Assembly (NCBI GenBank): GCA_002279765.1
Contig: NCCR01000149.1
Coordinates: 15,921-58,296 of the forward strand
Length of the DNA: 42,376 bases
Direction: 5' to 3'
From: Verrucomicrobia bacterium 12-59-8
GTDB taxonomy: Bacteria > Verrucomicrobiota > Verrucomicrobiae > Verrucomicrobiales > Verrucomicrobiaceae
The notes below the pieces were generated by a model. That model made no database searches, was not told the DNA's origin, and saw only the letters and a list, made by a program, of their open reading frames with translations. A program made the translations under genes and the position numbers. Shown here piece after piece: positions 15,531 to 27,111 of this stretch; within the stretch, counting starts at the first letter, position 1, and every line of letters begins with the position of its first letter.

Positions 15531-16766
15531 ATGTCCCAGATCCCTCGTCGTCAGTTTGTTAAATCCACCGCTGCTGCAGTTTTCGGCTTTCAGATCGTCC
15601 CGCGTCACGTCATCGGCGGCCCGGGCTTCACCGCACCGAGTGAGAGGGTCAATCTCGGCTGCGTCGGCATCGGTGGCCAGGGCGGCGGCGATATCCGCGA
15701 CCTAGATGACTCCGGCCTCGCGAACATCGTGGCCCTTTGTGACGTCGATCTGGACCACTCTGCCGCCACGATCAAAAAATACCCAAATGCGAAGCTCTAC
15801 CGGGACTACCGTGAACTGATCGACAAGCAGAAAGACATCGACGCCGTGCTCGTCGCCACGCCGGACCATGTACATGCGCCTGCAAGCATCATGGCGATGC
15901 GCGCCGGACGCCACGTCTATGTGGAGAAGCCTCTCGCCCACACCATCGCCGAGGCGCGTGCCATGCGTGATGTGGCTGCGGAGACCAAACGCGTCACGCA
16001 GATGGGCAATCAAGGCCACGCCAGCGAAGGCATTCGCCTCACCCGCGAATGGATTCAGGCCGGGGCCATCGGCAAAGTCTCCGAAGTACATGTGTGGTCT
16101 GACCGCCCCGGCAAATTCTGGGACACGCAGGGCAAGGCCTACCCCACCGACACACCACCCGTGCCCAAAAACCTCGACTGGAACCTCTGGCTCGGACCGG
16201 CCAAAGAGCGCGCCTACAGCCCTGACTTTTGCCCGCGCAAATGGCGCGGCTGGTGGGACTTTGGCTGCGGTGCCCTCGGCGACATGGCCGTCCACAACGC
16301 CGACCCCGCCTTCTACGCGCTCGACCTCGACGCCCCCGACTGGGTCGAGGCGGAGAACGGCCCGAACAACAACCAGTCGTACCCGACGTGGAGCATCATC
16401 ACCTACCACTTCCCCGCCAAAGGCGACCGGCCAGCAGTAAAAATGGTCTGGTATGATGGCGGCAAGCTGCCACCCCGCCCCGAAGGTCTGGAAGAAACGC
16501 GCAACCTCGGCGACAACGGCATCTACTTCGTCGGAGACAAAGGCTGCATCCTCGCCGGCGGCTGGTCCGGCACCCCGCGCATCGTGCCTGAGACCAAGAT
16601 GCAGCAGTTCGTCATCCCCGCGAAGACGATCCCACGCTGCCTGAGCGGCCACCGCAAAGAATTCCTCGAAGCCTGCAAAACCGGCAACCCGCAAGATGCC
16701 AAGTCCGGCTTCTGGTACTCCGCCCCCTTCACCGAATCCCTCCTCGTCGGCCTGCTCGCCGTTCGT
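15531..16766 (+). CDS. Gfo/Idh/MocA oxidoreductase, Tat-exported, C-terminal end lost
   Basis: A secreted NAD(P)-dependent oxidoreductase of the type common in Planctomycetes and Verrucomicrobia. The N-terminus carries a twin-arginine signal ([16 protein letters not shown]). The Rossmann motif is GIGGQGGGD (46-54) and the EKPLA motif lies near residue 133. Family similarity runs to [13 protein letters not shown] at about residue 412 (base 16766) and then stops abruptly. About 35 C-terminal residues expected in this family, plus the stop codon, are missing. From there the frame runs on without a stop to 18158, antisense to the convergent DUF1501 gene. The coordinates given are the recognisable part only; the literal open frame would encode 875 residues. 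Role inferred: oxidation or reduction of a sugar or polyol in the periplasm. Confidence 0.75.
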
Positions 16767-16775
16767 CACCAACTC
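16755..16775. other. Tail-to-tail junction without stop codons
   Basis: Plus-strand Gfo/Idh/MocA similarity ends near 16766 and minus-strand DUF1501 similarity ends at about the same base. Neither gene has its own stop codon or any intergenic spacer. The two frames are in codon register on opposite strands, an arrangement in which high-GC codon bias tends to keep the antisense frame open. This reads as a deletion or assembly join that removed both 3' ends. Confidence 0.6.
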
Positions 16776-18176
16776 GCCTGCGACTCCCGTGAGCCGCATG
16801 TCGAGGCCTTGGAAGCGCTGATTGAGCTTCGTGTGCTCAAACCCGAGCAGATGCAGCAGCGTGGCGTGCAGGTCATGTACATGCACCGGATCTTCAGTAA
16901 CGTTGAACCCAAACTCATCGCTCTGACCGAGCGTGAGGCCAGGCTTCATGCCGCCGCCGGCAAACCACATGCTAAAACAGTTCGGATGATGATCGCGCCC
17001 ATCGCTCCCACCCTGCACCATCGGCGTACGCCCAAATTCACCGCCCCAGATGACGAGGGTATCCTCCAGCAGACCGCGCTGTTTCAGATCGCGAAGCAAC
17101 GCCGCGCAGGGCTGGTCAGTAAGACCACACTGCGTCTTCAAACCGTTCACCAAACCACCATGGTGATCCCAGGCCTCATGGAAGAGCTGCACAAAACGCA
17201 CACCACTTTCCACGAGACGACGTGCGAGCAGGCAGTTGTTGGCAAAGGAGGCCTCGCCCGGCTTCGCGCCGTACATGTCGAGGATGTGCTGCGGCTCTTT
17301 GCTGATGTCCATCAGCTCCGGCGCCGTCTGCTGCATGCGATAGGCCAGCTCGAAGCTGTTGATGCGGCTGGCGATCTCAGGATCCCCCACCACGTTGAGA
17401 CGCTCCTCATTAAGCTGCTTCAAAACGTCCAACGTGTCGCGCTGCGTCGCATCATCGACGCCGTCCGGGTTACTCAGGAACAGCACCGGCTCACCGCTGC
17501 TGCGAAACGGCACGCCTTGATACACAGTGGGCAGGAAGCCACAGCCAAAGTTGCTCATCCCACCGCTGGGGCCTTTCTGGCCGCTCTGCATCACCACGTA
17601 ACCCGGCAGATCCTGATTCTCTGTACCGAGACCGTAAAGCGTCCACGCCCCAAAGCTCGGCCTGCCAAAAATCTGCGAGCCCGTGCTCATCAAAATCTGC
17701 GCCGGTGCGTGATTGAAGGCGTCCGTTTTCATCGAACGCACAATCGTGAGATCGTCCGCCATTTTCGCCGTGTGCGGCAGCAGCTCGCTCAGTTCCGCAC
17801 CGCTCTGGCCATGCCGGGCAAATTTAAACTTCGGCCCCAGCAGCTTGCTATTGGGATTGATGAACGCAGCGCGGTAGCCCTTGAGCAGATCCGGCGGCGG
17901 CAGCTTGCCGTCCCACTTCGAAAGTTCCGGCTTGTTGTCGAACAGCTCCAGATGACTCGGCGCACCCCCCATGAAAAGATAGATCACCCGCTTCGCCTTG
18001 GCAGGATAATGCGGCTTCTTCAGCGCCAGCGGACTCACCGGTGCCGCAGCACTGGCCGTGCGCGACATCATATCCATCGCCGCAATGCTAGCCAAGCCCA
18101 CGCCGCAGTCTTTGAAAAACCAGCGGCGGCTGCGGTAGCGGGCGTATTCGGCCTGTAGTTCGTGGCGAAAATTCAT
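16767..18176 (-). CDS. DUF1501 protein (sulfatase-like fold, Tat signal), last residues lost
   Basis: About 470 residues of recognisable DUF1501 sequence. The N-terminus has a Tat-type signal ([18 protein letters not shown]), followed by hallmark segments [46 protein letters not shown] and [14 protein letters not shown]. The family ends soon after [17 protein letters not shown], where this copy reaches the junction with the Gfo/Idh/MocA gene. Only about 3-6 residues and the stop are missing, so the fold is probably intact. The literal frame continues to 15702 (824 residues) through sequence antisense to the oxidoreductase. DUF1501 genes usually accompany cytochrome-like DUF1549/DUF1553 genes in Planctomycetes and Verrucomicrobia, but none is next to this one. 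Function unknown. Confidence 0.78.
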
Positions 18177-21758: not shown

Positions 21759-23942
21759 TCAGCTTGCGGCTTTAACCGGCTCCTTTTTCTGGGTGGTCAC
21801 CGGTTTCACCGGAGTCCCTTCGGCAGCCGGTTTCGGTTCGCTCTTCCACAGCCTCCAAATAGGAATGAGACCGCTTTGCACGATCTCTATGGCTGGCCTG
21901 GCACGTTGTTGGATCGCCACAAAATCCGTGCCACCGACCCGGTCCTGAAACTTTTCAGCCTTTTCAAACAGCTTTTGAAAAGCTTCCTTGGCTGCATTGG
22001 CCGCTTTTTCGAGTTTCAAATACTGGGCGATTTTTGAACCCAAATCGAGTGCTTGGGCTTCCTTCTCTACGATCACCTTTTTCAGCACGGTGATCCTCCG
22101 CCGGGTGTTTTCTGCCCTGTGGCTCATTTCTTCCCGGATGGGCTCGACGAGTGCGTTGAGTAAAAAGCGTACCTTGGCGGCTTTCTCCTTCGTTTCAATC
22201 ACCAGAAGGTTATCAGGCTTGTGATTTTCGAGCAGGTACTTCAGTTCATTCTCCAAACGGCGAAGTTCGCTTTGGGTTTGGATGTAATCCCTTTCCGTCT
22301 GAGTCGATGGCTGCACGTCGCTGACTTTGACTTGGGCTTGCGTCACTGCCGCAGGGATGTTGCTTAAATCCAGTTCTAGATCTGCCAGAATCATATTTTG
22401 CTCTGCCATTTGAGCAGTGAGTTTACTCAGCATCTCCGCCGTCTGGTTGTTGCCTTGTGTTATGGCCGTGATGTTGTTGAACATCCGAAACTCAGCCAGC
22501 TCACGGTTACGTTCCTCCATGACTCTTTGCATTTTCACTGTTTCTTGGAGGAAGAGATGTAGATCTTTGCCGCCTGCCTGCTCGCGTACGGATTGGCGAA
22601 AGGCGATGAATTCATCCAGCAGCGCATCAAGGAAAATTTTGGCGTACTTACCGTCTGTACTGACCGCTTGAACTCCAAACATGGTTGTGCCCTTGACCTG
22701 CGCCGCAAGGATCTCGACATCCTTGTCTTTTAGATTTGGATTCAAGGCTCTGACTCGCTCCAAAGCCCGGCGCTTCATTTCGGCCGACTCGATGGTTTCA
22801 ATGATCGTACCGTAATGATCCGCCTGTTGGGCCTGCCAGTTATTCCCTGCCGCTAGGAGCGATGATCCAGCCACGAGTTTCGCCTCACTCTGATACAACG
22901 GCACCTTTGGCTTGAACTCAACCTTCGTCGCCGCCAGCACCGCCAAGATCACCGCCACGACCGCTATCAAGCTCATCGCACCGATGCCGATGCGTCCTCG
23001 CCATTGATTCGTCTTCATCAGCTCCCGCACCCGCTGCTGGATGGACTCCCCGCCGAACATGGTAACACCTGCTGTAGGGCGCAGCCGACCAGGAATACCG
23101 GCGGCAATCTCCACCAGTGTGCGAGCATACTCACGCGTATCGCCACTTGCCAATACCGCCACATCATCCGCCGCCTGCTCGGTTTCGAAACGCAGACGGC
23201 GCTGTGCCAGCCAAGACAGCGGCTGCCACCACCATAGGCACACAGCACATTGCCCCAGCCATTTCCAGAACACGTCCGAACGCTGGAAATGAGCCAGCTC
23301 GTGATGCATCACCGCGTCCAGACGTTTCTCGTCCCAGCCAGCGGCTTCCTGTGGCAGCCAGATCACGGGCTTACGCAAGCCAGTCAGCATGGGTGATTGC
23401 AACCTCTGCGCCAAACGGCAGCGCATGCTGGATGGCGCCCCTGCTCTTTCTCCCTGCTGCTCAATCAGCGGCGGCGCTTCTTCACTGTTCTTCCTCAACC
23501 AAACCAGTCCCGCGAACGCCCTTGCCAATTTCCACAGGAGCAGTGCACCGGCCGCACCCAGCCAAAGCCTCAGGCCCCAGCTCTCCAGCCACATCAATCC
23601 ACGCTGCGACCAGCTTTTCTCCGGCAGAATCAGCACAGGTGTTTCCGGCAGCACAAGAGGAGCTGCATTAATCTGATGTGCCTGCATGGTCACACGCCAC
23701 TCCACAACGGCCACCGGCGGAGCTGCTTCTGACGTGAAGCGCCAGACCGCCACCACCAGCAGCATCGCCATCGTGATTCTCCAGATGAGGCTGCGGGCAC
23801 GCGCGGAGCGCCGTTGCAGTTGCAAGGCCATGGCCCAGGCCACGCACACCACTGCTGTGCTGGTGAGGAGTGCTGAAACCAACAGGCCCAGATTTGGATT
23901 CCGCGTGAGAAAGCGAAGCAGGTCTTCCAAGAAATCGTTCAT
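21759..23942 (-). CDS. BlaR1-like M56 metalloprotease fused to a Wzz/GumC-like domain
   Basis: A 727-residue membrane protein. Residues 1-340 are BlaR1/MecR1-like: several membrane segments and a cytoplasmic zinc protease with HELAH (214-218) and downstream EQAAD (255-259). A last membrane span lies at about 318-338. In BlaR1 this position is followed by a penicillin-binding sensor. Here residues about 349-450 instead resemble the periplasmic part of polysaccharide co-polymerases (Wzz/GumC): LYQSEAKLVAGSSL, YGTIIETIESAEMKRRALERV, KGTTMFGVQAVSTDGKYAKIFLDALLDEFIAFRQ. About 230 residues of coiled coil and a Lys/Pro-rich tail follow, with no second membrane span. The start overlaps the BlaI-like gene by four bases (ATGA). 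Inference: a sensor of polysaccharide or envelope state that cleaves the repressor. Confidence 0.85.
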   Translation of the reverse strand: MNDFLEDLLRFLTRNPNLGLLVSALLTSTAVVCVAWAMALQLQRRSARARSLIWRITMAMLLVVAVWRFTSEAAPPVAVVEWRVTMQAHQINAAPLVLPETPVLILPEKSWSQRGLMWLESWGLRLWLGAAGALLLWKLARAFAGLVWLRKNSEEAPPLIEQQGERAGAPSSMRCRLAQRLQSPMLTGLRKPVIWLPQEAAGWDEKRLDAVMHHELAHFQRSDVFWKWLGQCAVCLWWWQPLSWLAQRRLRFETEQAADDVAVLASGDTREYARTLVEIAAGIPGRLRPTAGVTMFGGESIQQRVRELMKTNQWRGRIGIGAMSLIAVVAVILAVLAATKVEFKPKVPLYQSEAKLVAGSSLLAAGNNWQAQQADHYGTIIETIESAEMKRRALERVRALNPNLKDKDVEILAAQVKGTTMFGVQAVSTDGKYAKIFLDALLDEFIAFRQSVREQAGGKDLHLFLQETVKMQRVMEERNRELAEFRMFNNITAITQGNNQTAEMLSKLTAQMAEQNMILADLELDLSNIPAAVTQAQVKVSDVQPSTQTERDYIQTQSELRRLENELKYLLENHKPDNLLVIETKEKAAKVRFLLNALVEPIREEMSHRAENTRRRITVLKKVIVEKEAQALDLGSKIAQYLKLEKAANAAKEAFQKLFEKAEKFQDRVGGTDFVAIQQRARPAIEIVQSGLIPIWRLWKSEPKPAAEGTPVKPVTTQKKEPVKAAS

Positions 23943-24325
23943 GACTCGCGTGCCTCCTCGATGAGTTGAATCAGTTTTTCCGCCTCTTCCTTGGACAGCT
24001 TCACGTTTTTCTGCCCCAGCAGAGCCATCGCCGCCTCCCCCGCAGAGTTCTCAAAAAACCGGCTCACAAAGCTCTGCAGCGCACACACCCGTGCTTTTTT
24101 AGGCGACACCGGCAGCGAGAACCAATCGCGCCCGTCTGCCTGTGTTTTAAGGAGAAGCCCCCGCTCCACCAGCAGCCGCAGGATGGACCGAACGGCCGAG
24201 TATGTTGGCGCATCCGGCAGCTTCTCTTCAATCTCACGAGCAGAAAGCCGCCCATGTTTCATCACGATCTCAATCACCTGCCGCTCGCGGCGGCTGAACT
24301 CATTGGAATGTTTGTCGTCCCACAT
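23939..24325 (-). CDS. BlaI/MecI/CopY-family repressor
   Basis: A winged-helix repressor of 128 residues if it starts at ATG 24325 (MWDDKHSNEFSRRERQVIE). An in-frame ATG at 24355 would add 10 residues, but that extension overlaps an operator-like palindrome, so I prefer the shorter form. LSAREIEEKLPDAPTYSAVRSILRLLVERGLL is the helix-turn-helix and wing. The C-terminal helices (LLGQKNVKLSKEEAEKLIQLIEEA) are the dimerisation and cleavage region of the family. The stop overlaps the start of the M56 protease gene, the usual BlaI-BlaR order, so the two are translationally coupled. The repressor should bind its own promoter as a dimer and be inactivated through the M56 partner. Confidence 0.9.
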   Translation of the reverse strand: MWDDKHSNEFSRRERQVIEIVMKHGRLSAREIEEKLPDAPTYSAVRSILRLLVERGLLLKTQADGRDWFSLPVSPKKARVCALQSFVSRFFENSAGEAAMALLGQKNVKLSKEEAEKLIQLIEEARES

Positions 24326-24327
24326 GA

Positions 24328-24345
24328 GTGCTGATTTTTCAACAC
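24328..24345. promoter_or_regulatory. Second operator-like palindrome (one mismatch)
   Basis: GTGCTGATTTTTCAACAC lies two bases upstream of the preferred repressor start. It is an 18-bp inverted repeat with one mismatched pair in its arms, and matches the arms of the perfect palindrome 41 bp away centre to centre, about four helical turns. It is probably a second binding site for the BlaI-like repressor. Confidence 0.6.
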
Positions 24346-24367
24346 CTTCTGGCATTCGTCAAGTCTG

Positions 24368-24387
24368 CATGTTGAAATTTCAACATG
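24368..24387. promoter_or_regulatory. Perfect 20-bp palindrome, probable BlaI-type operator
   Basis: CATGTTGAAATTTCAACATG is a perfect inverted repeat with no spacer. It lies 42 bases upstream of the preferred repressor start at 24325, in the 107-137 base gap between thioredoxin and repressor genes. Autoregulated BlaI-family genes carry dyad operators in this position, so repressor binding is the natural reading. Confidence 0.75.
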
Positions 24388-24861: not shown

Positions 24862-25023
24862 GCGGTACCATCCGGGCCAGATTTCATTCTGGCAAGGGGC
24901 GATGACGTCCGATTCCCCCCAGTTTTCGACCTTGAAACCAACCCCTGTACCAGTAAGGAAGGCGTCCCGCGCTTGGCCGCATCTGGCGCTTGTTTGACCC
25001 TCATTGACCCTGAAACCCTCGAC

Positions 25024-27111
25024 ATGAACAATACCCTCCTCGCTCAAGCTGCCAACGAAGCCCGTGGTCTCGCCATGGATGCCGTGCACAAGTGCTCCTC
25101 CGGCCACCTCGGTCTGCCCCTCGGCTCCGCCGAAATCGGCGCTGTCCTCTTCGGCGAAACCCTTCAGTGCGACCCCGCCGACCCCAAATGGCTGAACCGC
25201 GACCGCTTCATCCTCAGCGCCGGCCATGGCTCGATGTTCCTCTACTCCTGGCTGCACCTGAGCGGCTACGCGGTGACGATTGACGATGTCTCCAAGTTCC
25301 GCGTGCTGCATTCCATCACCCCGGGGCATCCTGAATTCCATGAAACCCCCGGCGTCGAGTCCACCACAGGCCCGCTGGGCCAGGGCATCGGCAACGCGGT
25401 GGGCTATGCACTCTCCGGCAAGATGGCGGCGGCAAAGTACAACACCGCCGCGCACAAGATCATCGACAATCACATCCTCGTCCTCGCCGGTGACGGCTGC
25501 TTGCAGGAAGGCGTGGCACGTGAAGCCGTCGCCTTCGCCGCTCACAACCACCTCGACAACCTGATCCTCATCTATGATTCCAACGATGTGACGCTGGATG
25601 CGATGGCCAAGGTCACGCAGGACGAAGATACCCAGGCTCTTTACACCGCGCTCGGCTGGAACGCCGTGACAATTGACGGCCACGACCTTGATGCCGTGAA
25701 GAACGCCATCGAAACCGCCAAAAAGAGCGACAACGGCAAGCCCTCCCTCATCATCGCCAAGACGATCATCGGCAAAGGCATCCCCGAAGTCGCCGGCACG
25801 GCCAAAGGCCACGGCGAGGGCGGCGCGAAGTTCATCGATTCCGCGAAAAAAGGCCTCGGCATCCCCGAAGGCACGCATTTCTATGTCAGCGACGAGGTGA
25901 ACGCGTATTTCGCCGATCTGAAGAACAAGCGCGGAGCCATCCACGGCGAGTGGAACACGGTCTTCCTCGCCTGGAGCGCCGCAAACCCAGAACTGGCCAA
26001 GCAGCTCGACGCCGCACGCAACGGCACCCTCAAGGCCGAAGATCTGCTCAAAGTGGTTCCAGAATATCCGGCTGAAGGCAAGGCCGCCACACGCAACAGC
26101 GGTGGCGAAATCTTCAACCACATCGCCAAAGCGGTGCCGCACATCATCACCGGCAGCGCCGACCTCTTCGGATCCACCAAGAACTACCTCACCGGCATGG
26201 GCGACTTCAGCCCTTCGAACCCAACCGGACGCAACATCTGGTTCGGCATCCGTGAGCACGCCATGGGCGCGATCTGCAACGGCATCGCCTATGACGGCCT
26301 GTTCCTCCCCAGCGGCGCGACCTTCCTCGTCTTCGCCGACTACTGCCGCCCGAGCATCCGTCTCGCAGCACTCGCCAAGCTTCCCGTCACCTACATCTTC
26401 ACGCACGACTCCGTCGGCGTCGGTGAAGACGGCCCGACCCATCAGCCGGTGGAAACCATCAGCGGCCTGCGCGTGATTCCGAATCTCGACGTCATCCGTC
26501 CCGGCGATGCCGAAGAAGCCGCCGCCGCTTTCGCCGCAGCCTTCAGCCGCACCGATGGCCCCACGCTGCTCGCTCTGAGCCGTCAGGATCTGCCGCATCA
26601 GGGCATCGCCAGCGCCGCCACTCAAGAAACCGCAGGTGCCTTCGCCGCAGCCTTCAGCCGCGCCGACGGCCCCACGCTCCTGGCCCTCAGCCGTCAGGAT
26701 CTGCCGCATCAGGGCATCGCCAGCGCCGCCACTCGTCGTGAAGGCACGCTCAAAGGCGGCTACGTCCTTGTGAAGGAAACCTCTCCACTCGAAGCCATCG
26801 TCATCGCCACCGGTTCCGAAGTGCAGTGGGCCGTCGAAGGAGCCAAAGGCAAGCCCGGCGTCCGTGTCGTCAGCCTGCCTTGCTTCGAGCGCTTTGACCG
26901 TCAGGACGCCGACTACCGCGAATCCGTTCTCCCTGCCGCCTGCACCAAGCGCATCGCCATCGAAGCCGGCGTCTCCGGCCTCTGGTGGAAATACGTTGGC
27001 ACCCAGGGCCAGATCATCGGCATCGACCGCTTCGGCATCAGCGCCCCCGGCAACACCGTCTTCAAGGAGCTCGGCATCACCGCCGACGCTGTGACCAAGG
27101 CGCTGGCCTGA
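25024..27111 (+). CDS. tkt: Transketolase with an internal tandem duplication
   Basis: A 695-residue thiamine-diphosphate enzyme that moves two-carbon units between sugar phosphates in the pentose phosphate pathway. The start [34 protein letters not shown] is typical, and the upstream in-frame codons are not. Motifs: STTGPLGQG, the diphosphate-binding GDGCLQEG followed by a SND segment, and GIREHAMG with [14 protein letters not shown] in the Pyr domain. Usual length is about 660-670. The excess comes from a 37-residue tandem repeat (about 503-576) whose unit contains [20 protein letters not shown], which normally occurs once. A terminator follows 30 bases downstream. Whether the duplication preserves activity cannot be told from sequence. 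Confidence 0.92.
26530..26734 (+). repeat. In-frame 111-bp tandem duplication inside transketolase
   Basis: Copies at 26530-26623 and 26641-26734 are offset by exactly 111 bp (37 codons). The last 45 or so bases of each are identical. The first half differs at six or so bases, nearly all synonymous, and one change swaps Thr for Ala. This pattern points to a real, partly diverged or gene-converted duplication rather than a simple read-join artefact. Confidence 0.9.

Follow-up and report, generated by a model that had tools for sequence, protein, structure and literature searches.

In Verrucomicrobia bacterium 12-59-8, an intact BlaR1-type M56 protease and the kinase-less periplasmic half of a Wzc-type protein are joined in one gene, which directly follows a gene for a BlaI-family repressor. 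The two genes are read here as a self-regulating BlaI/BlaR1-like circuit, whose sensor copies, without the kinase, the periplasmic half of a Wzc-type autokinase from the same lineage and would report on the capsule or exopolysaccharide (EPS) machine; we infer both the signal and the output, and consider this reading evenly poised between right and wrong. All coordinates refer to the window, i.e. the whole stretch of 42,376 nucleotides that was analysed. To our knowledge, the ways in which bacteria keep watch on polysaccharide export machines are not well understood. If a proteolytic switch uses a copy of the machine's ring subunit as its sensor, a simple reporter composed of operator and promoter could show in which state such a machine is. 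Moreover, if the reading is true, the BlaR1 design, known for antibiotic resistance, would be a general plug-in sensor platform, and further sensors could be sought by a rule, namely among M56 proteins with a C-terminal part that copies a subunit of an envelope machine. The sequence-only reading of this DNA knew of no such fusion, and no description was found in the open-licence PMC literature either. PMC12578637 was discarded as M56/BlaI literature, as the accessible part of its text matched by chance words.

Architecture of the fusion protein

The features of the operon are listed in Table 1. The HELAH protease that had been noticed, together with membrane segments, in the N-terminal part was confirmed by the Pfam model Peptidase_M56 (107.1 bits, cut-off 31), with the zinc residues intact. 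The fusion residues H214, H218, D223, E255, D259 and Y272 align with H201, H205, D210, E242, D246 and Y261 of BlaR1, which are named catalytic or stabilising in the accessible part of the BlaR1 structure paper (PMC9834060). None of these fusion residues, nor E215, varies among the 29 aligned fusions, and HExxH is kept in 52 of 52 listed fusions. The NCBIfam model blaR1_generic reached 54.9 bits against a cut-off of 400 and covered residues 175-335 only, which is below the level of the beta-lactam sensor equivalog, and the sensor region is Wzc-like and not a penicillin-binding sensor domain. Judged from these comparisons, the fusion is BlaR1-like by architecture and not a beta-lactam sensor. 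Signal-dependent cleavage of BlaI would be expected from the family and the intact motifs, by analogy with known M56 regulators, which act through cleavage of BlaI/MecI according to the accessible parts of PMC7593790 and PMC9834060.

Table 1. Features of the BlaI-M56 operon in window coordinates
Feature	Coordinates	Strand	Basis or remark
M56-Wzz fusion gene, 727 aa	21759..23942	(-)	single gene
Peptidase_M56 region, residues 21-306	23025..23882	(-)	
HELAH zinc motif, residues 214-218	23289..23303	(-)	alignment to H201ExxH205 of BlaR1
Last membrane helix, residues 318-336	22935..22991	(-)	hydropathy 2.83; position of Wzc TM1
Wzz/Wzc base domain, first part, residues 345-477	22512..22910	(-)	
Long coiled coil, residues 478-648	21999..22511	(-)	secondary structure of predicted model
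Return part of base domain, residues 649-693	21864..21998	(-)	
C-terminal tail, residues 694-727	21762..21863	(-)	
BlaI-family repressor, likely start ATG at 24325	23939..24325	(-)	Pfam Penicillinase_R 3.8e-17; operator position
Operator 2, TGTTGAAAAATCAGCA	24329..24344	(-)	palindrome just before BlaI start; candidate site
CTTGAC, -35-like element between both operators	24358..24363	(-)	putative, from sequence
Operator 1, perfect palindrome TGTTGAAATTTCAACA	24370..24385	(-)	candidate site

The last M56 helix is followed by a region of about residues 345-693 that corresponds to the periplasmic part of Wzc/ExoP-type tyrosine autokinases; the alignment with Wzc begins at residue 314. Both the Wzz/GumC-like sensor and the long coiled coil claimed by the sequence-only reading were upheld by a structural match to Wzc, found next to that to BlaR1, and by 45-48% identity of the sensor part to Prosthecobacter autokinases. 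The predicted model (pLDDT 75, pTM 0.41; moderate confidence) gives the base domain a Wzz-type fold, as in Wzc-type autokinases and polysaccharide co-polymerases, which is what the suggested structure prediction had been expected to return. In the suggested Pfam search Peptidase_M56 matched, and the Wzz model matched neither the fusion nor its autokinase relative P0062; a Wzz-family match was likewise absent from the Pfam and PDB sequence searches. No second membrane helix was found in the fusion, the hydropathy from residue 660 to the end (727) being at most 0.59 compared with 2.9 for TM2 of P0062. The autokinase alignment stops short of TM2, and no kinase domain was found in the fusion. In the tail, W696 and W699 are invariant among the 29 aligned fusions.

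Like BlaR1/MecR1 with BlaI/MecI, the fusion combines an M56 protease, membrane helices and the motifs HExxH and ExxxD with a sensor that follows the last helix on the far side and a BlaI-family repressor gene, but it has a Wzc-type periplasmic domain in place of the beta-lactam-binding sensor. With the Wzc/ExoP/GumC autokinases (polysaccharide co-polymerase class 2a) it shares the base fold, the coiled coil and the position of the first membrane helix; unlike these, it lacks the kinase domain, the tyrosine cluster and the second membrane helix and carries the N-terminal M56 protease. Several of the same genomes also encode Wzz-type proteins of about 340-400 aa with this base domain and without a kinase, which in contrast to the fusion have a C-terminal hydrophobic segment (two copies read, L025) and no M56 part. 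Genes of this kind, several of them in tandem, were seen in L025, L026, L028, L030, L031, L053 and L149; they derive from the same autokinase, and their eight tree rows form one clade (100/100).

Distribution and genomic context

A scan of genome contigs, built on two peptide patterns and therefore missing fusions that lack them, yielded 12 fusion loci from organisms named Verrucomicrobia or Prosthecobacter. Within one family (that of G006) the fusion occurs in about 17 of 68 genomes. A match into both halves on one contig was obtained in 15 of the 68 (frameshifted in G006, without the coil in G005), the fusion of G012 is split across two contigs, and that of G055 is a fragment. In a class-wide search of 384 genomes, with at most two candidates scored per genome and E<=1e-70, only G006 matched; other families may have such fusions as well. 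The proposed survey for the same fusion elsewhere was positive, and its recurrence across genomes rules out misassembly or two separate genes as its source. The fusion of G005, a metagenome assembly, lacks about residues 478-648, i.e. the coil, and keeps the base parts, BlaI and the operators (L005 10001-11599).

BlaI lies directly upstream of the fusion at 11 of the 12 relatives' loci (L011, which contains Ns, was read in part); the L001 fusion has its start at the end of a contig, and BlaI with the operator pair was found near the end of another contig of the same genome. Neighbouring genes are conserved among close relatives only, and therefore the module is the BlaI-M56 pair itself. A single copy of the autokinase was found in 65 of 68 genomes, among them all 17 fusion-bearing ones; because nearly all genomes have an autokinase, the co-occurrence of the two is uninformative. 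At the one annotated locus (L056, G006) the autokinase adjoins a Wza-like Poly_export/SLBB gene.

Operators and search for further targets

The reported BlaI-family gene with its four-base overlap of the fusion start was recovered as such, its product matching Penicillinase_R at 63.1 bits against a cut-off of 22.6. Like BlaI/MecI, it has dyad operator-like sites at its own promoter: two were seen, against 0.01 matches expected from shuffles of the window. As these candidate operators are placed on a -35-like element and ahead of the BlaI start codon, they would fit autorepression. The staphylococcal bla/mec operator is of the TACA/TGTA type, whereas that of the window reads TGTTGAAATTTCAACA.

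The genomes of 12 of 12 relatives have a pair of sites with the exact pattern TGYTGAWWWWTCARCA at this BlaI promoter. Genome-wide, the exact pair occurs nowhere else in ten of them, and in the other two (G002, G004) a second exact pair precedes a sister BlaI gene, after which comes an M56 gene whose product differs in its C-terminal half. The reversed pattern gave 0 sites in all 12 genomes, and exact sites of two control palindromes composed of the same letters numbered 1 and 0 there. BlaI and exact operator sites were also read from the DNA at all four fusions outside the motif derivation (G015, G016, G017 and G021). The operators are spaced by about 40 bp, and by 25 bp in G015 and G016. A second BlaI-M56 pair sharing the same operator pair was seen at L051 5837-5893 and L052 2899-2955, with M56 proteins of 1082 and 1089 aa; that of L052, the one scanned of the two, has carboxypeptidase-regulatory-like repeats. 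Here the sensor is exchanged, and the repressor type and the operator are retained. Strict even-spaced dyads precede sister BlaI genes at 6 of 21 promoters (L115, L116, L052, L121, L122 and L130); with the general dyad test positive in these six only, a private operator for every BlaI-M56 pair was dismissed as a mere impression.

Exopolysaccharide genes had been predicted as targets of the repressor. No operator at up to two mismatches was found around 12 autokinase genes (flanks of 1.5 kb, one of them shorter in L023 and L024 due to a contig end) or in six stretches of 14-20 kb (L053-L058; four autokinase loci and two tandem Wzz loci). Because no operator lies near the autokinase genes examined, these scans do not support exopolysaccharide genes as direct targets, and this prediction was given up. 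One-mismatch sites outside the exact pairs numbered 29 in the 12 genomes versus 1 for the pattern read backwards; this excess was rejected as background, since the two same-letter control palindromes give comparable numbers (30 and 16 sites at up to one mismatch). Four of the 29 sites precede another BlaI gene, and 23 of the other 25 lie under an open frame of at least 100 aa, chance frames being common in such GC-rich DNA. When the covering frames were inspected by eye, no recurrence of these 25 sites in the same gene was seen.

The confinement of the exact pair to the own promoter, or also to that of one sister pair, together with a yield of 25 further one-mismatch sites that is within the range of the control palindromes, would suit a main output that is not transcriptional. 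The protease-bearing subunit would then enter autokinase rings and cut or poison them, and BlaI would only set its dose. This is improbable in our judgement, as known M56 regulators cleave BlaI/MecI (PMC7593790 and PMC9834060, in their accessible parts) and as an operator scan would miss weaker or differently built operators. For the self-regulating circuit that is preferred here, the output seen so far would be the operon itself, under positive autoregulation.

Evolution of the sensor half

In a tree of the M56 halves, calculated without the C-terminal piece of G012 and without G055 (both fragments), 17 fusions and two sisters with the same operator formed one clade (99/97) against 13 other M56 proteins. 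When 18 fusions and 48 autokinases were compared by their Wzz halves, well-supported branches forced the fusions into four places in the tree. Three of these places, taken by G021, by G015/G016 and by G010/G011/G055, are next to autokinases from the respective lineage; the remaining 12 fusions make up the fourth. A single fusion clade was rejected for the Wzz half (dlnL 259.6, AU p 3e-30) and for the base domain alone (210 log-likelihood units, p 2e-10; without G017). G017 was omitted from the base and coil trees due to its very long branch, and the coil-less G005 from the coil tree. The tree of autokinase domains, meant as a species guide, has 2 of 13 inner branches starred and is mostly unresolved.

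Base domain and own autokinase share 95.6% identity in G011, 81-85% in G010, G015, G016, G021 and G055, and 75-82% in G007, G008, G009 and G012; in these ten genomes (74.6-95.6%) the own autokinase ranks first to fifth of 48. This identity is 50-67% in G001-G004 and G006 (rank first to ninth of 48) and only 37% in G017 (rank 43); for the base of the window fusion, comparison with autokinases from its nearest relatives gave 63%. In many cases the own autokinase shares the nearest position with those of close relatives, which tie with it. When the pairing of fusions and autokinases was shuffled among 16 genomes, ignoring kinship, the observed match was never reached (0 of 10,000). The coil has 25-45% identity overall and 31-45% in the ten genomes with the best-matching bases.

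Fourfold (synonymous) sites are saturated, and similarity was seen at the protein level only. Therefore, a recent gene conversion or a fresh copy of autokinase DNA is not supported, and the match is, on the sequence record, one of old replacement or homogenisation with purifying selection. The same protein-level similarity with saturated sites would also be left by independent fusions of autokinase pieces and M56 genes in several lineages, or by strong constraint alone, in which case sensor and resident autokinase need not match in function. We regard this as very improbable: all fusions examined have the same type of BlaI, of operator and of M56 half, so that the protease side would have one origin and the sensor side would have been replaced or homogenised, and constraint alone would leave the single fusion clade that was rejected.

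In the coil-only tree 14 of 16 fusions grouped together (89/94, not starred); in AU tests a single coil clade of all fusions had p 0.038, compared with 0.24 and 0.13 for the other groupings. A different history of base and coil is suggested, but not established, by the coil-only tree. The periplasmic ring of E. coli Wzc is held together mainly through the base region (motif 1), and motif 3, the coil, is mobile (PMC8285477, accessible part). The simplest reading of the sequence comparisons is that the sensor base must fit the cell's own machine; in the window's lineage this fit rests on descent, since the base of the window fusion has drifted.

A different role for the Wzz part, namely direct sensing of something else, such as a glycan or a ligand from cell wall or envelope, by means of the diverged coil, with a base that only anchors or oligomerises and never meets the autokinase, is rather unlikely in our view. 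It would account for the far stronger divergence of the coil (31-45%) than of the base (75-96%) in the ten genomes and for the drift of the base in Prosthecobacter-type genomes (50-67%), and, BlaR1 being a dimer (accessible part of PMC9834060), an oligomerising sensor domain would be useful on its own. However, it leaves unexplained why the base repeatedly tracks autokinases of the host lineage, and G005 keeps BlaI and operators without having a coil. Because the sensor base matches autokinases of the host's own lineage, the case for sensing of envelope or polysaccharide assembly is strengthened, and the fusion most likely reports on the Wzc-type machine.

According to this preferred reading, the base domain would join or compete with the ring of resident autokinase base domains, or bind the same partner. 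A change in the autokinase machine would be transmitted via the shared helix, the protease would then cut BlaI, and the operon would be switched on in positive autoregulation. Further effects could arise via weaker sites or from action of the protease on other proteins.

Sister M56 systems

In the 12 draft genomes, 4-10 M56 and 3-9 BlaI-type matches were counted per genome, some of them fragments. From three genomes 22 sister M56 genes were extracted, of which 18 were domain-scanned and the other four were short (289-364 aa). An envelope-machine domain exceeded the Pfam cut-off in 7 of the 18, i.e. ExbD in two, a PBP transpeptidase in three (two with MreC), STN in one, and secretin plus SLBB in one. 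Such a match stayed below the cut-off in 4 of the 18, carboxypeptidase-regulatory-like repeats were present in three, and nothing beyond M56 was detected in four. BlaI-paired M56 proteins with envelope modules in the sensor position were seen in L112, L119, L114, L120, L128, L121 and L122.

SxxK and KTG are the motifs expected in a catalytically active PBP. Two of the three PBP-type sensors have PG-AVFQ or PG-AVLQ where PG-SxxK is usual, with serine and lysine lost, and in the third this place was not located with certainty; other SxxK letters are present elsewhere in two of the three. Because the SxxK place is altered and a KTG-type motif was not found in any of the three, these modules look catalytically dead by their motifs.

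It is possible, though we advance it only tentatively, that in the Verrucomicrobiaceae a panel of BlaI-M56 systems surveys the envelope machines, each sensor being an inactive copy of a subunit that joins or shadows its machine and the protease reporting the state. The copies in such a panel might include, again as a tentative list, a kinase-less Wzc, ExbD/TolR, a secretin, and a PBP without catalytic serine and lysine that is fused to MreC. If this holds, BlaR1, with a relative of penicillin-binding proteins as its sensor, would be a special case of the principle.

Other observations in the window

At 24973-27111 the window encodes a transketolase with an internal tandem repeat (a 23-residue unit, twice); compared with the aligned query, its matches in L003 and L005 lack about 37 residues. 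At 15531-18176 two long antisense open frames overlap nearly completely, namely a MocA-type oxidoreductase ORF on the (+) strand (875 residues, Pfam domains at 41-294) and a DUF1501 ORF on the (-) strand (824 residues, domain at 61-471).
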